The notes below the pieces were generated by a model. It saw nothing but the letters and a program-made list of their open reading frames with translations. It did not search any database and was not told the origin of the DNA. DNA of 64,000 nucleotides from Caballeronia insecticola (GTDB lineage Bacteria; Pseudomonadota; Gammaproteobacteria; Burkholderiales; Burkholderiaceae): assembly GCF_000402035.1 (NCBI RefSeq), contig NC_021287.1, forward strand, positions 2,356,001 to 2,420,000. Direction: 5' to 3'. Shown here piece by piece: positions 38,156-45,488 of the stretch. Position 1 is the stretch's first letter. Every line of letters begins with the position of its first letter. Position numbers and translations under genes: made by a program.

Positions 38156-38418
38156 CTTTGCCCATTCGATTCGCCACGCGATTCGCGCAGCCCGCTTCGC
38201 CCGCGGCTTCCAGCGCCTTGTCTTCGATTGTCGCGTTCGCTTCGATGAACGAAAGATCCTTTGCGTCTTCGGTACTCCAAAAACGCCCCCCCGATCTAGC
38301 CAACCGCCACAAAGCCCGCGCTCTGCATCAACCGCAATCCGCACCCTTCTCCCAATCAAGACACAATATGTCCCAATTCTCCCTATAATCCATCTCAATA
38401 TCCCCCCGCGCCGACGTC
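38156..38418 (+). other. Region between tRNA-Lys terminator and the WYL gene
   Basis: About 260 bases, slightly less G-rich than its surroundings and with no supported gene. The last 60 bases hold the promoter and dyad of the WYL gene. No copy of the tRNA 3' end was found downstream, so there is no sign of an integrated element using this tRNA. Confidence 0.5.
38357..38375 (+). promoter_or_regulatory. Dyad in the WYL gene promoter (candidate WYL box)
   Basis: CAAGACA-CAATA-TGTCCCA. Eight bases after it lies a perfect -10 TATAAT at 38384-38389, and no -35 hexamer is present. The oriented pattern and spacing match the two sites between the nuclease gene and the small protein gene. Confidence 0.65.
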
Positions 38419-39489
38419 ATGACCTCCAGCCTCGACGAAGCCATCCTCCGCGTGCTCCCCACCGAGCGCGACGCGACCGCCTGGCTCTCCACGCCCGAAA
38501 TCCATCGGCGGCTCGAAGAGCGCGGTCATCGCGTGGGTTATACGAAAAAGGTGCAGCGCCACCTGAGCGCGCTCGAAGCCGACGCGCGCGTCGTCTCGAT
38601 GCTCAACGGCCGCGAACTCCTCTGGCAGCGCAAACCGTGGCTGCACGGCTTGCAGGAAGGCGTGAGCGGTCTGATGAGCGCATCCGAGGCCGTCGCGTTT
38701 CACATCCTCCAGCGCTTCGCGGGCAACAAGCTGCCGAACGCCGTGACGCGCGACATCGATCCGCTCTTCAAGGCCGCCGAAGCACGGTTGTCGCAGGAAA
38801 AAGCCGACAGCCGCATCTATCGCGCGTGGGCGGACAAGATCGATTCCGTCGATGGCGCCTTCACGCTGATTCGCCCGAAACTGCGTCCCGACATCTTCCA
38901 GACCGTGGCGACCGCGACGTTCTTCGAACGTGAACTGCTCGTGCAATACCGCGCCGCCTACAAGAGCGAACAGGGTGAGCCAAAGACGAAGACACTCTGG
39001 CCGCTCGCTCTGGTCGAGTCCGCCGGCGTCATGTACATGGTCGCGCAGGACCCGAACCGCGCGCCGCAGCCCGAGAACGGCAACAAGGAATGGATGCGCG
39101 CGCTCTACCGGCTCGACCGCATTCGCTCGGTGACGGAGTCGGGCGCGTCCTTCACGTATCCCGACGACTTCAAGCTGCGCAAATACATCGAAACGCAGCA
39201 GGTCTTCGACTTTCTGCCCGAGCCGCCGGTGCGCCTCGAGCTTGCCTTCGAAGGGAACGCGGGCAATCAGTTGCGCGAATCGCCGATGTCGAAGGATCAG
39301 CAAATCGACGCCCTCCCCGACGGCCGCATGAAAGTCTCCGGGACCGTGACGCCGAGTCTCAAGCTGCGCTGGTGGCTGCGCGCGCTGGGTGCGGGCGTCG
39401 AGATTCTCGCGCCGCAAGCCTTACGCGATGAATTCGCCGACGACTACCGCAAGCTCGCGAATCGTTACGGCGCGGAACAGCCGCAATAA
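38419..39489 (+). CDS. WYL-domain transcriptional regulator
   Basis: A 356-residue regulator with an N-terminal helix-turn-helix (about 20-60, [32 protein letters not shown]), a middle WYL domain (about 170-240, with [18 protein letters not shown] where MYM stands in for the WYL triplet) and a C-terminal WCX part ending [24 protein letters not shown] domains sense nucleic acids or nucleotides: PafBC and DriD are activated by single-stranded DNA, and BrxR/CapW control phage defence. It is tail to tail with the SbcC-like ATPase gene, 24 bases apart. Confidence 0.88.
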
Positions 39490-39513
39490 GCGATGCCGCG
39501 TGTTACCCCATGG

Positions 39514-42500
39514 TCAGCCCATGTAGCGCACGTTGACCTGCGGGCCGAACACATCGCGGACGATATCGACCAGATGATCGTGATGGCTCAGAAAGATCAC
39601 CTGCGTGCGCTTCGCGATGTGCGCGAGCACGCGCAGGCCGGCGCGGGCGCGGCCATCGTCGAAATTGATGAAGAGATCGTCGGCGACGAAGGGCAGCGAC
39701 GCGGCTTTCTCGCCATGCTCCTCCAGCGCCGCGAGCCGCAACGCGAGAAAGAGCTGATCGCGCGTGCCCTCGCTCATGCCCGCGATCTCGACATGTTCGC
39801 CGCTCGCGCGGACGGCTGAAAGCGCCATCGGCTGACGGTCGTAATCGACGACGAGCCGCGAGAAGTGGCCGAGCGTCAGCTCCGAGAAGATGGTGCTCGC
39901 ACGCGTGAGCATCGGGCCTTGCCGGCGCTCGCGATAGCGGTCGATTGCCCATTTGAGCAGCGTCGATGCCGTTTCGACCTTCACGAAGCGCTCGGCGGCA
40001 TCGGCCATCGCGGCGAGCGCTTCCTGACGACGGGCTTCCGCGCGCGCCGCATTGGCTTCGCCTGAAATGGCATCGAGCTCGCGGCGCGCGGTGTTAAGCG
40101 CGGTGGCGATGTCGCTTGCGGTTGTCACCGATTCCGTGAGCGCCGCGCCGATCCGCGAGAGTTCAGCCTCGACGTTCGGCATGTCCGCGCCCTCCACTTC
40201 CGCGACGATCTCATCGAGCGACAAACCGTCGCCGCCCTTGATCAGCGCGGCGCGCGCGTCGTCTGCGGCGGCCAGCAACTCGCGCTTCTTCTGCGATTGC
40301 GCGATCAGCACCGCGAGCGCATCCGGCGCATCGACGCGCGCAAGCTCGTAAAGCGGCCGCAGCGCCGCTTTCGCTTCCTCGACCTCGGCATGCGCGCGCT
40401 TCACCTGATCCGTCGCCTGCGCGTGTTCCTTCGTCAGCCGCTGCCGTTCCGCATGCGCGACACACGCGCGATCGAGCCGCGCCGACAGGTCCGCCGCAAT
40501 GTGCTGCGTGCCGCGCGTGACGGGGGAAGCATCGAGTTCGCGCGCGAGCTGCAATGCGTCCGCATCGACCGTGGCGAGCGCCGCGCGCATCGCATCGATC
40601 TGGCCGGTGCGGATGGACTCGACCTGCGTCAATTGCTCGCCGATCTTCTTCACGATGTCGATCGCCGCTTCGGCCGCCGCCTGCGAATCCGCGCCCGCCG
40701 CGAGGCCCGCCTTCGCGATCGCCGCCGACCATTCGCCGCGCCAGCGTTCCAATGCTTCGCGCGCCGCCGCCGCCGCGTTCTGCCGCGCGATGCTGTCCGC
40801 GTGGGCTTCGTCGAGTTGCTCGCCGATGGTGCGCCGCGTGACCGTTGCGTCGTCGATTGCGGCGATGTGCGCTTCGGCGTGATCGCAGAGCGCGTCGAGG
40901 CCGGCTTGCGAGCCGAGGGCGTCGAGCGCCGCGCCCGCGTCGACGAGATGCCGCGCGAGTTCGTCGCGCCGCGCGGCGGCATCGGCGGATTCGCGCGCCA
41001 GTTCGCCTGCGCGGGCGTCGAACGATTGCGCGGCCGCCAGCGCCTTGTCGCGCGCGGCGAGCCACGACGGCGCATCGTCGAGCGACATGCCTTCCAGCCC
41101 CGACTGCGCGGCGAGCGCGCGCCACGCTTCATCGAATTCCGTGAGCGCCGCCTGCGCCTCATGCATGCCGTGCACGCCGTTCACGCGTCGGGCGAGCGTC
41201 GCTTCGTCGTTCGCGATGCGCCGCTTCAGCGCCGCGAGCTGCGTCGCCTGACCGAGCGAGCCGAGCTGGCGATCGGCGAGTCCGTCCGCCGCGTGCATGG
41301 CGGTCTCGAAGCCGGCGGCGCCGTGATCCAGCGCGACATCGCCGGACCGCATCGCGTGCCATGCGGCATCGCGCGCGGCACGGGCATCGCGCACCTGATC
41401 GCCCGTCACGACATCGTGCGTGTGCACGAGATCGTCCAGTTCGGTTTGCGTCGCGCGCAGATCGTCTTCGGCTTCGCGGGCGCGATCGGCGGCGAGCGCA
41501 AACCGCGACGCCAGTTCCTGCCGCCCGCTGCGCAACGCGGCGATGCGCTCGGCCGCCGGCAGCGTCATGGCCGCAAGCTCGCCGATCGGACGACGCCACT
41601 GCCCAAGCGACGCCACCGCTGCATCGAGCGCCTGCTGCGCATCGCGCTTTGCGTCTTCGAGACGACGCTGCTCCGCGCTCGCGTCGCGATACTTCTGCGC
41701 GGCCCGCAACGCCGCGCGCAAGGCCGGCGAGACATGGCCGCTCGCGATCGACGCAAGCCTGACCTTCAGCCCCTCGATATCCGCCGCGGCTTCACTCGCA
41801 GCCTGATCCGCGTTGCGCGCCGCGAGTTCCAGTTCGCCGCGTTCGAACATGAGGCTCGTCACCGTCTGCAACGCGAGCGTGCCGGGCATCGCGCGGCGCG
41901 CGCCCGCTTCGTCCAGCGGCCAGCCAAGCTGCGCGGCGTCCTGCGCGACCTGCTGCAAGCGCTCCGCGACATTCTGTTCGAGGCGCGCGATCTCGCTCGC
42001 GTGGTTCGCCGCGCGCTGCCACGCCGCGTCCAGCGCGCGCACGCGGGCCTGCGCCGCGAGCATCGCGTCATCGATGTGAACCGCGCTCGATGCGGCCTGC
42101 AACTCCCGCGCTTTGTCCGCATGCAGGTCGAGCGCGCGTTGCGCGGCAGCGAGCCGCGTCAGCGCGTTGTGCAGCGTCGCCTCGGCGTTCGCGGGCAAGT
42201 CGACGACATCGCCCAGTTCGCGCAACTCGGCGGCCTTGTCGCGCCACACGTTCAGATACGGCGCCACGCGTCTCACCCGTTCGAGCTTGCCGCGCATTGC
42301 TTCGAGTTCGGCGCGGCGCGCTTCCAGTGCGCGGCTCTTGTCCTCGGCTTCGTCCACGGCGGCATGCGCGCGCCGCCATTGCGCGGTCCGCACGCTGGCC
42401 GTCTTCAGTTCGGCGGTGGCTTCGTCGAATTGCTTCAGGCCGATGTTGTAGCTGCATCCCGACTTGCGTTTCGCCCACAATCCGGCGGCTTCGTCCGCGA

Positions 42501-42990
42501 GGCGCTGGCGCACGTCGCCGAGGCTCGCAATGCCCGCCGCCGACTGGAACAGCACCTGTCCGACGTCGCTCGATGCATCGAGAATGCTCCGTCCACCGCG
42601 AATCAGCGCCTCGTGATCGAGGCAGTACATCTGCTCGAAGAAATGCTTGTCGGCGGCGCCGAGAAACGGTGTGAGTGCATCGGCGGCGAGCGCGTCGCCG
42701 TTCGGTGCGCACAGCGGCGACTTGCGGCTCTTCGTGCGATGAAACGCGAAAGTCTCGTCGCCCGTCTGGATCGCCGCGCCGAGGCGCAAGTCGCTTTGCG
42801 GATGCACGAACGCGAGCGGCGAGCTGTGCGGCATGCCGAAGAGCAGTTCGGAGATCGCGTTTTTGATCGTCGACTTGCCGGCCTCGTTCGGGCCGACGAC
42901 GAAATGAAAATCAAGTTCCGCCGCCGGAAACTCGACGGCGTGATCGGTGAATTTCCCGTAACGGATGAGTTCGAGCTTGCCGATGCGCAT
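39514..42990 (-). CDS. SbcC/YhaN-like AAA ATPase, 1158 residues
   Basis: A large Rad50/SbcC-type ATPase. The Walker A motif GPNEAGKST is at residues 33-41 in FHFVVGPNEAGKSTIKNAISELLFG. The C terminus has a signature helix (MSEGTRDQLFLALRLAAL), a Walker B-like strand (LPFVADDLFINFDD) and LSHHDHLVDIV. Between them are long Ala-rich coiled coils. I see no CxxC zinc hook, which fits the YhaN group rather than true SbcC. It starts 2 bases after the nuclease gene, so the pair is one operon. It likely processes DNA ends or damaged DNA; the substrate is unknown. Confidence 0.9.
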   Translation of the reverse strand: MRIGKLELIRYGKFTDHAVEFPAAELDFHFVVGPNEAGKSTIKNAISELLFGMPHSSPLAFVHPQSDLRLGAAIQTGDETFAFHRTKSRKSPLCAPNGDALAADALTPFLGAADKHFFEQMYCLDHEALIRGGRSILDASSDVGQVLFQSAAGIASLGDVRQRLADEAAGLWAKRKSGCSYNIGLKQFDEATAELKTASVRTAQWRRAHAAVDEAEDKSRALEARRAELEAMRGKLERVRRVAPYLNVWRDKAAELRELGDVVDLPANAEATLHNALTRLAAAQRALDLHADKARELQAASSAVHIDDAMLAAQARVRALDAAWQRAANHASEIARLEQNVAERLQQVAQDAAQLGWPLDEAGARRAMPGTLALQTVTSLMFERGELELAARNADQAASEAAADIEGLKVRLASIASGHVSPALRAALRAAQKYRDASAEQRRLEDAKRDAQQALDAAVASLGQWRRPIGELAAMTLPAAERIAALRSGRQELASRFALAADRAREAEDDLRATQTELDDLVHTHDVVTGDQVRDARAARDAAWHAMRSGDVALDHGAAGFETAMHAADGLADRQLGSLGQATQLAALKRRIANDEATLARRVNGVHGMHEAQAALTEFDEAWRALAAQSGLEGMSLDDAPSWLAARDKALAAAQSFDARAGELARESADAAARRDELARHLVDAGAALDALGSQAGLDALCDHAEAHIAAIDDATVTRRTIGEQLDEAHADSIARQNAAAAAREALERWRGEWSAAIAKAGLAAGADSQAAAEAAIDIVKKIGEQLTQVESIRTGQIDAMRAALATVDADALQLARELDASPVTRGTQHIAADLSARLDRACVAHAERQRLTKEHAQATDQVKRAHAEVEEAKAALRPLYELARVDAPDALAVLIAQSQKKRELLAAADDARAALIKGGDGLSLDEIVAEVEGADMPNVEAELSRIGAALTESVTTASDIATALNTARRELDAISGEANAARAEARRQEALAAMADAAERFVKVETASTLLKWAIDRYRERRQGPMLTRASTIFSELTLGHFSRLVVDYDRQPMALSAVRASGEHVEIAGMSEGTRDQLFLALRLAALEEHGEKAASLPFVADDLFINFDDGRARAGLRVLAHIAKRTQVIFLSHHDHLVDIVRDVFGPQVNVRYMG

Positions 42991-42992
42991 GG

Positions 42993-44249
42993 CTACTCCG
43001 CGTCCGCCAGTTGCGCGATCAGACCGGAGCGCACTTCGCTCACCAGCTTCGCGAGGTCGCCGTTGCGGACGTGTTCGAGCTCGGGCACGGACTTGTGCAA
43101 CTCGGCCGGCGCCTGCAACGCGAGCGCAAGGAGCCGTTCCTTCAGCATCTCCAGAAACTCGGGATCGGACTCGGCTTCGATCAGAAGGCCGTGCAGATCG
43201 GCGAGCGCATCGACGCGGCCGGATGCGGGTTCGCTGTGCGCGAGCGGCTCGGTCGCGATCTTCACTTTTTCGAGCCAGAGCCGGTCGTGGCTGATGGCCG
43301 CGATCTGCGCGAGCACTTCCGCGCGCAGTTGCGTTTCCAGCCCGAAGAGCGCGCCGTGCGCATGCGTCGCGCCGGTGATCGTCACGCGCACGGCGTGCGG
43401 CACGGACGACGCCGCTTCTTCGACGAGCACTTCGAGCGCGCGTCCGACCGCGAGCGCGACTTCATCGAGCGTGCCCGCCTGCGAGGCGTCCACCATGACG
43501 GACTCCCAGCGCAAGACATCGACGAAAAGCCGTTCGACGCTGACCTCTTCCGTCTCCGACACGCTCACGATCACCGCGCCACGCCTGCCCGTCTCGCGAA
43601 TGTTGCGCCCTTGCAGATTGCCCGGAAACACGATCGTCGACGCTTCCTGCCAGATGGCGTACTCGTGCACGTGCCCGAGCGCCCAGTAGTGATATTGCTT
43701 CGCGTGCAGTTCGGCGATGGAGCACGGCGCGTAGGTCGCGTGCATCGAACTGCCTTCGAGCGCGGTATGCAGCACGCCGATGTTGAAATAACCCTCGATC
43801 GGCGCGGGATACGCGGTGACGAGATTCGTCGTGACCGCTTTTTCCTTGAAGCTGTGGCCGTGCAGCGCGACCTTCAAATTGTCGATGCGAAAGGTCTGCG
43901 GCTTGCGCGTCGAAAACGTGTGGACGTTGTCGGGCAATTGCAGTTGCGTCGTCATTTCGCTTTCGGCGTCGTGATTGCCGAACAGCACGTAGACCGGAAT
44001 GCCCGCGCGGCGCAGGCGTCCCATCTCGCGGCAAAAGAAGATGCCGGTGTTGTAGTCGCGCCAGGTGCCGTCGTAGAGATCGCCCGCGATAACCATGAAA
44101 TCGACCGCTTCTTCGACCGCGATATCGACAAGCTTCGTGAACGCTTCGCGCGATGCGCTGCGCAGCATCTCGGCGGGCGCGTCGGCATAGGCGGCGAGCC
44201 CGTGCAACGGGCTGTCGAGATGAATGTCCGCCGCGTGAATGAAGCGCAT
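42993..44249 (-). CDS. SbcD/YhaO-like DNA exonuclease (metallophosphatase family)
   Basis: A 418-residue nuclease subunit of the Mre11/SbcD superfamily. Metal-binding motifs are complete: Asp8 and His10 (HAADIHLD), Asp57 and Asp60 (GDLYD), GNHD at 91-94, His161 (GVLHTAL) and GHVH at 192-195. I chose the ATG at 44249 (MRFIHAADIHLDSPLHG), which puts the first motif at the usual place; the frame is open to 44291. It is followed directly by the ATPase gene, and its promoter region carries the WYL-type dyad. Confidence 0.9.
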   Translation of the reverse strand: MRFIHAADIHLDSPLHGLAAYADAPAEMLRSASREAFTKLVDIAVEEAVDFMVIAGDLYDGTWRDYNTGIFFCREMGRLRRAGIPVYVLFGNHDAESEMTTQLQLPDNVHTFSTRKPQTFRIDNLKVALHGHSFKEKAVTTNLVTAYPAPIEGYFNIGVLHTALEGSSMHATYAPCSIAELHAKQYHYWALGHVHEYAIWQEASTIVFPGNLQGRNIRETGRRGAVIVSVSETEEVSVERLFVDVLRWESVMVDASQAGTLDEVALAVGRALEVLVEEAASSVPHAVRVTITGATHAHGALFGLETQLRAEVLAQIAAISHDRLWLEKVKIATEPLAHSEPASGRVDALADLHGLLIEAESDPEFLEMLKERLLALALQAPAELHKSVPELEHVRNGDLAKLVSEVRSGLIAQLADAE

Positions 44250-44305
44250 GCGCTGTCTCCGTAGAGGATATTTTCTGCCCGAGTCCCGCATCTTCGGGGA
44301 CGACG

Positions 44306-44339
44306 ATCATAGCAGCCGAGCGGGACACATCGCGTCCCG
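44306..44339 (-). promoter_or_regulatory. Promoter of the nuclease-ATPase operon with a WYL-type dyad
   Basis: Read on the minus strand, CGGGACG-CGATG-TGTCCCG (44339-44321) is followed after 9 bases by TATGAT (44311-44306). The place of a -35 hexamer (CGCGAT) lies inside the dyad and does not match the consensus, which suggests that an activator takes its role. Confidence 0.62.
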
Positions 44340-44365
44340 ATTACGGTATGTCCGGCGCGCCCGAT

Positions 44366-44399
44366 CGGGACGCCGGATGTCCCGCCGCGCCGCCAGAAT
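44366..44399 (+). promoter_or_regulatory. Promoter of the small protein gene with a WYL-type dyad
   Basis: CGGGACG-CCGGA-TGTCCCG (44366-44384) is followed after 9 bases by CAGAAT (44394-44399), a four-of-six match to the -10 consensus. No -35 hexamer is visible. The gene starts at 44437 with GAGG before it. Confidence 0.55.
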
Positions 44400-44436: not shown

Positions 44437-44691
44437 ATGAACGAAACACTCGAACGAAACGCCGCCCCGACGAGCCCTTACACCGCGAGAAACGTGGATG
44501 CCGCGATCAGGCATCTGGAGCGCGTTCTGTCGGCGGAAGGCGCGAATTCGCTGTTCGGCCAGACCTACTGGCGCACGCGCGTGCAACAGGTGAGCGCGAC
44601 GCGCGGCCTGCAGCGCGAGCAGCGCGCACGCCTTGAGCGTCTGATGAAATTGCTCGCGGATGCCTGCTGCGTTCAGGCTTGCGAGCGCTGA
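44437..44691 (+). CDS. Small 84-residue protein of unknown function, probable third member of the WYL-controlled module
   Basis: The product starts [21 protein letters not shown]. It looks soluble and largely helical, with many Arg, Leu and Ala and no membrane segment or signal. Three cysteines cluster at the C terminus in [11 protein letters not shown], which might bind a metal. No family is recognised. The ATG at 44437 has GAGGCTACGACA before it. Its promoter carries the same dyad as the nuclease operon and the WYL gene. Its last 19 bases overlap the 3' end of rsmA on the other strand. Confidence 0.68.
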
Positions 44692-45488
44692 ACCGCCTGC
44701 GCGAGCGCGACGAATTCCGCGACGGGCACTTCTTCCGCGCGGCGTGTGAGGTCGAAGCCGAGGGCATCGAAATCGATCCGGTCGCGATAAGCCGCGAGGT
44801 TGTTGCGCAGCACCTTGCGGCGTTGCGCGAACGCCGCTTTCACGACATCCGACAACACGCGTTCATCCACGTCCGGCAACTCGTGCGGCGCGAACGGAAT
44901 CATGCGCACGATCGCGGAGTTCACCTTGGGCGGCGGCTGGAACGACTCCGGCGGCACGTCGAGCATTTTGTCCATCGCGTAGCGGTATTGCAGCATCACG
45001 GAAAGACGCCCGTAGTCCTTGCTCGCGGGCTCTGCGATCATGCGTTCGACCACTTCGTCCTGCAGCATGAAATGCTGGTCGATGACCTTCGGCGCGAACG
45101 CCGTGAGATGAAACAGCAGCGGGCTCGAAATGTTGTACGGCAGATTGCCGACGATACGCAGCGTCGGCTTCTCGCCTTCGAGCGCGAGCGCGCCGAAATC
45201 GAAGTCGAGCGCGTCGGCGGAATGCACGACGAGCAGCTCGCCGAAACGCTTTTCCAGCCGTCCGATGAGATCGCGGTCCAGCTCGACCGCATGCAGCGGC
45301 GACTCGGGCGTGGCCACGCGGCCGATCAGCGGCTCGGTGAGCGCCGCGAGTCCCGGCCCGATCTCGACCATGCGTTCGCCGCGTCGCGGCGCGATGGTAT
45401 CGACGATCGAATCGATCACACCCTGATCGACGAGAAAATTCTGCCCGAAGCGCTTGCGCGCGAAGTGGCCTTGATGTTTGGTCGCCAT
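44673..45488 (-). CDS. rsmA: 16S rRNA dimethyladenosine transferase RsmA (KsgA)
   Basis: SAM-dependent enzyme that dimethylates two adjacent adenosines near the 3' end of 16S rRNA. The 271-residue protein has [17 protein letters not shown] at the N terminus, the SAM motif [15 protein letters not shown] and the catalytic [12 protein letters not shown]. It is the last gene of the lptD-surA-pdxA-rsmA cluster and lies 34 bases after pdxA. Confidence 0.97.

Follow-up and report, generated by a model that had tools for sequence, protein, structure and literature searches.

A conserved 19-bp dyad at a fixed distance from -10 elements without a -35 at a WYL regulator and SbcCD-type nuclease locus of Caballeronia insecticola

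The stretch of 64,000 nucleotides analysed in this work (contig NC_021287.1, hereafter the window) comes from the soil bacterium Caballeronia insecticola and contains a gene for a WYL-domain regulator, followed by an SbcD-SbcC-type nuclease operon and a gene for a small protein of 84 amino acids (aa). The element under study is a 19-bp dyad that precedes each of these three transcription units. From left to right the gene order was YbgF-type gene, tRNA gene, WYL, SbcC, SbcD, 84-aa gene and KsgA/RsmA-type gene; the closest named relatives of the WYL gene were from Caballeronia, which indicated a Caballeronia-type genome. According to Pfam matches and a model, the regulator carries a winged-helix-type N-terminus, a helical linker, a WYL domain and a WCX domain, all in one chain. 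The 84-aa protein had no match in Pfam, NCBIfam or PADLOC. The features are as follows:

38357..38375, plus strand: dyad before the WYL gene, CAAGACACAATATGTCCCA, centred near -30, conserved in relatives
38384..38389, plus strand: -10 element TATAAT of the WYL gene, 8 bp past the dyad, without a -35, conserved
38419..39489, plus strand: WYL regulator, 356 aa (Pfam WYL and WCX, and a model; DriD nearest in the PDB)
39514..42990, minus strand: SbcC/Rad50-like ATPase, 1158 aa (Pfam AAA_27; partial NCBIfam Rad50 match below cut-off)
42993..44249, minus strand: SbcD/Mre11-like metallophosphoesterase, 418 aa, ATG at 44249 (Pfam Metallophos; NCBIfam SbcD match below cut-off)
44306..44311, minus strand: -10 element TATGAT of sbcD-sbcC with TG extension, 9 bp past the dyad, conserved
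44321..44339, minus strand: dyad before sbcD-sbcC, CGGGACGCGATGTGTCCCG, centred near -31, conserved in relatives
44366..44384, plus strand: dyad before the small-protein gene, CGGGACGCCGGATGTCCCG, centred near -31, conserved in relatives
44394..44399, plus strand: -10 element CAGAAT of the small-protein gene, 9 bp past the dyad
44437..44691, plus strand: 84-aa small protein
44673-45488, minus strand: KsgA/RsmA-type gene, named by eye
left of the WYL gene: YbgF-type gene and tRNA gene, recognised by eye

The three sites, of the form CRRGACR-N5-TGTCCCR, were the only exact matches to this pattern in the window. Their coordinates and strands, as well as the gaps of 8, 9 and 9 bp that separate them from TATAAT, TATGAT and CAGAAT, agreed to the base with a previous interpretation made from the letters alone (the sequence-only reading). 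This had also described the promoters as lacking a -35, and indeed the best matches to TTGACA at spacers of 15-19 bp reached only 3, 2 and 2 of six positions. Action of the MerR type through an over-long spacer was dropped as a candidate, as no hexamer at these spacers matched TTGACA at more than three of six positions. The statement that the intact TGTCCC half faces the promoter held as a tendency but not as a rule, since the site is essentially a palindrome (GRGACA-N5-TGTCYC at WYL promoters). In the named loci considered below, the inner base on the promoter side was T in 38 of 39 WYL dyads, 19 of 22 SbcD dyads and all 29 small-gene dyads; the mirror base was A in 37 of 39 WYL dyads, but G in 18 of 22 SbcD and 22 of 29 small-gene dyads. 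The TG of the extended -10 at the sbcD promoter was absent from the earlier description.

Within the window, the strict motif was observed three times as compared to 0.007 times per dinucleotide shuffle (300 shuffles, maximum 1), an enrichment that is partly circular because the motif was derived from these same three sites. With up to two mismatches there was no enrichment (six matches vs. 6.3 expected), nor was there any for bare RGAC-N7-GTCY dyads (10 vs. 5.2 expected, largest shuffle 18). An excess was seen for dyads followed at 8 or 9 bp by a -10-like hexamer (4 vs. 0.28 expected, largest shuffle 2), the fourth of them falling within the KsgA-type gene. As the looser forms of the motif were not enriched, the window alone was insufficient to settle the question. 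Across the whole genome, the pattern with up to two mismatches gave 262 forward and 212 reverse matches vs. 155 and 147 for the reversed pattern, which was too loose for picking targets; the 9-bp-spacing pattern with one mismatch gave four matches vs. none for its control. An exact match outside the locus (C3:1173939) was discarded, since by eye it lies inside a coding frame. A near-perfect dyad, followed after 9 bp by CATGAT, was also seen in this genome (G000) at C4:317780-317813 (read in L004 and L293); it lies about 180 bp upstream of a gene for an S53-type (pro-kumamolisin) protease and fits the 9-bp rule.

Conservation was assessed in 50 named WYL loci of Caballeronia, Paraburkholderia and Burkholderia, in which the dyad was sought up to 200 bp upstream of the match; since the genomes are related, the counts of loci do not represent independent events. 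A conforming dyad preceded 39 of the 50 WYL genes, with the -10 at 8 bp in 28 of them, at 9 bp in eight and at 6 bp in one, and none found in two. All 22 loci with an SbcD match had some dyad in the interval, and the script located the -10 at 9 bp in 20 of these; in L124 it picked a chance dyad, the real site having GACGAT at 9 bp, and in L107, where the sbcD dyad is degraded with one arm lost, it picked the dyad of the small gene instead. The small protein was encoded beside the WYL gene in 33 of the 50 loci, and conforming dyads occurred in 29 of these (all but L131, L153, L154 and L155), every one with NANAAT at 9 bp. The sequence-only reading had made its case depend on conservation of the dyad upstream of orthologous loci, and this conservation was found (39/50 for WYL, 20/22 with the -10 at 9 bp for SbcD and 29/33 for the small protein). 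Information content was higher in the dyad and in the -10 stretch than in the flanks at the WYL promoters (1.46 and 1.35 bits vs. 0.31 and 0.36 bits), at sbcD (1.47 and 1.21 vs. 0.62 and 0.98) and at the small gene (1.39 and 1.27 vs. 0.43 and 0.78). The dyad and the -10 were the best-conserved portions of the WYL promoter in the named loci, and in genomes of the same genus they stood out both upstream of WYL and in the intergenic region between sbcD and the small gene.

The distance between dyad and -10 was analysed separately in 41 stretches around WYL homologues lying outside complete window-type loci (624 kb). They comprised 20 WYL-homologue stretches, among which the joined G039 island stood in for L100, a part of it, and 21 named loci that lacked SbcD and KsgA matches; L129, a short contig with a window-type WYL gene, is among the 41. 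Dyads of the form RGAC-N7-GTCY with inner A or T were listed in both orientations and chosen blind to the -10. At least one dyad was present in 40 of the 41 stretches, and 148 oriented dyads were left after removal of near-duplicates. Among offsets 0-29, hexamers matching TATAAT at four or more of six positions numbered 47 at offset 9 and 12 at offset 8; the latter peak was just modest, because the next-highest offsets reached nine (offset 12) and eight (offset 14). With five or more matching positions there were nine hexamers at offset 9, eight at offset 8 and at most one at any other offset. The reversed motif, a palindrome of equal composition that served as control, gave 14 oriented occurrences and a single -10-like hexamer, at offset 21. 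The 44-kb island of G039 (L282-L284, G039:C1:2364000-2408000) adjoins a second WYL copy of 78% identity and contained 17 dyads that had a -10-like hexamer 8 or 9 bp on, as compared to 0.46 per shuffle (largest 3). Genes of this island encode a Sir2-family protein, a DUF2779 protein, an RNase_H_2/helicase-like protein of 1153 aa and many small proteins without known function, and by eye a copy of the 84-aa protein and a HIDAIAR-type small protein were recognised there. The relatives provided independent support, of a computational kind, for one regulon whose dyad keeps a constant position ahead of the -10 in promoters lacking a -35.

A motif search in genomes carrying or lacking the WYL gene, as the sequence-only reading had proposed, gave 45 matches to the 9-bp-spacing pattern in 11 WYL-bearing genomes (about 73 Mb) vs. 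five in nine WYL-less genomes of the same genus (about 80 Mb), a contrast partly confounded by ancestry; the reversed control gave two matches across all 20 genomes. The 45 matches corresponded to the locus's own sbcD and small-gene sites (18), the G039 island (7), the surroundings of other WYL homologues (2), the neighbourhood of lexA (4) and positions elsewhere (14), some of the last probably in coding DNA. Per base, dyads were about tenfold denser in the WYL-bearing genomes, and about sixfold when the locus's own sites were left aside. The 8-bp pattern gave eight matches in the same genomes, seven of them within about 70 bp of WYL matches, and none for its control. Two groups of recurrent matches were judged unrelated by eye, namely those near C1:6502-8010 in G034 and G037 and those of a GTCATGAT type, which was present in a WYL-less genome as well.

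Away from the WYL gene, the neighbours almost never carried the site. None of the 15 SbcD relatives of other families (39-58% identity) had any GAC-N7-GTC in 260 bp, with start codons set by the match alone and the weaker matches L329-L342 left out, and a search of 250 bp from the match gave no conforming dyad for 19 of 20 small-protein paralogues elsewhere. The exception, L204, has a WYL homologue about 12 kb away. The dyad tracks the WYL gene and not its neighbours. The small protein also accompanied the WYL gene in 11 loci where no SbcD match was found (L120, L123, L131, L133, L134, L139, L150, L151 and L153-L155), and for this reason the small protein, rather than the nuclease, seems to be the closest partner of the regulator. 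The 84-aa family has several copies per genome, for example at G000:C3:1264718-1264924, with further copies in G006:C111, G007:C15, G010:C37, G023:C47 and G024:C14; in five draft genomes one copy lies about 1.1 kb from the contig start, as if adjoining a repeat.

Further candidate targets were found outside the locus. A site of the same kind precedes a gene for a 109-aa protein directly downstream of lexA (G000:C1:1337060-1337091, minus strand; read in L007 and L288); the identity of LexA was confirmed, and the 109-aa protein had no family match. Of 54 genomes with a match to this gene, 50 were examined and 23 had the site, including 21 of 38 labelled as WYL-bearing and two of 12 labelled as WYL-less; of the latter two, G018 has broken WYL pieces and G026 is 60% complete. 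A weak -10-like hexamer (e.g., CAAGAT or CAATAT) was mostly present at 9 bp, with a few poor cases such as G008. In L090, from another genus, the dyad was present before the WYL homologue and before a different Mre11/Rad50-like pair (63 bp before its start codon), with a 9-bp gap at both promoters; the SbcD-like protein of this pair shares 27% identity over 206 residues with that of the window.

Other neighbourhoods were recorded as side observations. A different, HTH_11-type WYL gene lies upstream of an SbcD relative in two other genomes (L326 487-1458 and L328 508-1479), which makes WYL and SbcCD genes neighbours in more than one setting. WYL homologues were seen beside AddAB-like genes (L097), beside a UvrD_C_2/NERD-type gene (L104) and, by eye, beside RecBCD-like genes (L104 and L105). 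A dyad of G010 (L289 1379), followed after 9 bp by GAAGAT, precedes the gene of a SLATT-like protein that matched PADLOC models of two-transmembrane effectors.

The interpretation that we favour, with a probability of roughly two in three, is that the dyad is the operator of a homodimeric WYL activator resembling DriD and SiwR, which would act on promoters without a -35 (those of its own gene, of SbcD-SbcC and of the 84-aa protein), with single-stranded DNA (ssDNA) as the likely signal. The WYL protein (38419-39489) would bind the dyad as a homodimer, its two winged-helix domains reading the two GRGAC(A/G) arms, and the palindrome, centred at -30/-31, would occupy the place of the absent -35, so that the bound dimer could hold RNA polymerase at promoters having only a -10, 8-9 bp downstream. 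In this way it would switch on its own gene (positive autoregulation, which we consider probable), the SbcD-SbcC DNA-end nuclease, the 84-aa protein and also, within one group of genomes, the lexA-neighbour gene. As signal, ssDNA would probably be bound by the WYL domain, and we infer that ssDNA made by SbcCD might feed back on the regulator. Sensing of ssDNA is plausible because a pair of arginines, R231 and R234, was invariant in 19 homologues of the regulator; the pair was equated with R204/R207 of SiwR by spacing only, and was aligned to the RLDR stretch of DriD. The idea of a loop through nuclease products is aided by the fact that this kind of site precedes two SbcCD-type pairs that differ greatly from each other.

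Several points weigh against this interpretation. WYL-bearing and WYL-less genomes differ in ancestry, which partly confounds the contrast of 45 to 5 matches, and this contrast fell to 27 to 5 without the 18 sites of the locus and to 14 to 5 when WYL-linked and lexA sites were also removed. No dyad was found within 200 bp of the match start in 11 of the 50 named WYL loci (L126, L133, L134, L145-L148, L150-L152 and L154), for two of which just 107 and 225 bp are available ahead of the WYL match, while in L145 the match begins only at residue 29. In the own genome, the 8-bp pattern with one mismatch gave six matches vs. nine for the control; the small-protein paralogue L208 lacks a dyad although it lies about 14 kb from another WYL homologue; and the lexA-neighbour site was absent from 17 of 38 WYL-bearing genomes. 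The extended -10 of the sbcD promoter might allow firing without an activator. Autoregulation would be a difference from known cases, as DriD does not control its own gene according to the excerpted text of PMC12340889 and, according to that of PMC12288472, PafBC, SiwR and DriD do not change in abundance after damage. Finally, CapW and BrxR are WYL proteins of similar build, yet they are repressors, described in part of PMC13373217 as repressing until ssDNA is bound, and therefore induction by damage would not separate an activator from a repressor.

A repressor of this CapW/BrxR kind, with the same protein and operator but with the dimer covering the -35 region until ssDNA or another ligand releases it, is the best-surviving alternative, although we regard it as unlikely. 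The operators of CapW overlap the -10 (PMC9122588, in part) and that of BrxR is just downstream of the predicted promoter (PMC9122601, in part), whereas here 8 or 9 bp separate the end of the 19-bp dyad from the -10 downstream of it; as the layout matches that of DriD and SiwR instead, an activator is likelier than a repressor. Sharp distance peaks at 9 and 8 bp across many promoters would not be needed for steric repression, and most of these -10 elements are poor (at offset 9, 47 hexamers with at least four of six positions but only nine with at least five). In addition, CapW and BrxR were not among the nine PDB sequences matched by the profile of the regulator at E up to 1, whereas DriD was matched.

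It is considerably less probable that another, chromosomal regulator owns the dyad and that the WYL gene is merely one of its targets. The neighbouring gene is not always the regulator, and some sites lie far from WYL genes, such as those beside lexA and before the S53 protease. Nevertheless, WYL homologues with as little as about 58% identity have the dyad before them, and it occurred in 40 of the 41 WYL-homologue stretches, many of which share few other genes; it is also commoner per base where the WYL gene is present, whether or not the locus's own sites are counted, and SbcD relatives and small-protein paralogues elsewhere lack it. The weakest alternative, a PafBC-like adaptation of sigma in which one subunit reads a half-site and the other touches sigma region 4, is very improbable: it would account for the lack of a -35, for the fixed distance to the -10 and for the more constant promoter-side TGTC arm at sbcD and the small gene, but both arms are conserved (outer positions not fixed by the search pattern being mostly constant as well), a single WYL gene without a PafB/PafC pair was found in the own genome by the search made, and PafBC ranked far behind DriD by profile.

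If an activator of the DriD/SiwR kind does own the dyad, the locus looks like an undescribed DNA-damage circuit, in which the operator, the targets and the probable self-control would be new, whereas the class of regulator is already known. By title, no WYL regulator of SbcCD was described among the literature matches listed (e.g., the best 20 of 249), and nothing joining Caballeronia and the WYL domain was found in the collection searched. In the literature surveyed, operators are described for few WYL activators. In the present case operator, spacing and targets can be read from dozens of genomes, and the regulon is therefore predictable and testable at once; the system offers a direct route to ask whether WYL regulators sense products of the nucleases they control, and a role in the damage response is suggested for several uncharacterised small proteins, including that of the lexA-neighbour gene of Caballeronia-type genomes. 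More tentatively, and less likely than not, there may be a LexA-independent damage regulon of Burkholderiaceae, scattered beside one family of WYL activators, that has repeatedly recruited DNA-end-processing machines (two very different SbcCD-type pairs, with AddAB-like and RecBCD-like genes as neighbours) together with Sir2-like proteins and small proteins without known function; nuclease-made ssDNA would be the ligand of the activator, making the response self-amplifying, and the site beside lexA would tie it to SOS.

Compared with SbcCD/Mre11-Rad50, the pair of the window likewise consists of a metallophosphoesterase and a Rad50-type ATPase encoded by neighbouring genes, but differs in scoring below the NCBIfam cut-offs for SbcD and Rad50; a possible likeness of the nuclease to YhaO had been suggested by the sequence-only reading. 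In Myxococcus, WYL proteins and SbcCD rise after mitomycin C, with no mutual control reported in the excerpted text of PMC12288472. PafBC, which the sequence-only reading had taken as the model, is alike in its WYL proteins, its ssDNA signal and the recognition of promoters without the usual -35 contact (PMC11804915, in part). It differs, as described in parts of PMC11804915 and PMC12340889, in being a heterodimer that needs RNA polymerase to bind promoter DNA and in recognising, through its PafB domain, a single element near -24/-26. Here both arms of the dyad are conserved, which departs from a single -26 element, and for a PafB/PafC-like pair there was no second WYL protein among the four proteins of the locus and one match in the own genome at E up to 0.001. 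The analogy had to give way, since a palindrome centred at -30/-31 fits homodimeric regulators such as DriD and SiwR and the profile search of the PDB gave E of 3e-4 for PafBC as compared to about 5e-12 for DriD, the nearest solved relative of the regulator; the likeness to PafBC is weaker than that to DriD, which is nearer in sequence and in published operator position. CapW and BrxR, which reached a similar Z in the structural re-ranking, are alike as homodimeric WYL regulators with palindromic or inverted-repeat operators, located there at defence operons in the sources seen in part, and differ in operator position and in repressing.

SiwR of Mycobacterium smegmatis is a homodimeric activator that binds an imperfect palindrome of 19 bp between the -35 and the -10 of an adjacent operon, and its R-x-x-R pair is required for ssDNA binding and activation (PMC10693628, in part). 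It shares with the window the length and region of the palindrome and the arginine pair, and differs in targeting DinB/YfiT-like genes, autoregulation not being seen in the portion of that source available. DriD of Caulobacter crescentus shares the winged helix-turn-helix, three-helix linker, WYL and WCX domains, and was first in the structural re-ranking (about 20% identity in the alignment). Its dimer grips DNA over the -35 and contacts the beta subunit and the alphaCTD of RNA polymerase, and its promoters have a site overlapping a poor -35 at a constant distance to a weak -10 (PMC12340889, in part), an arrangement shared by the promoters of the window, likened by position and not by operator sequence. 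Its targets include recJ and dnaG; apart from the lack of autoregulation, it differs in that SbcCD is not among the targets named in the excerpted text of PMC12340889. The features of the DriD/SiwR class found here were a one-chain protein of winged helix-turn-helix, linker, WYL and WCX domains, a palindrome covering the -35 region at a fixed distance from the -10, and paired arginines.

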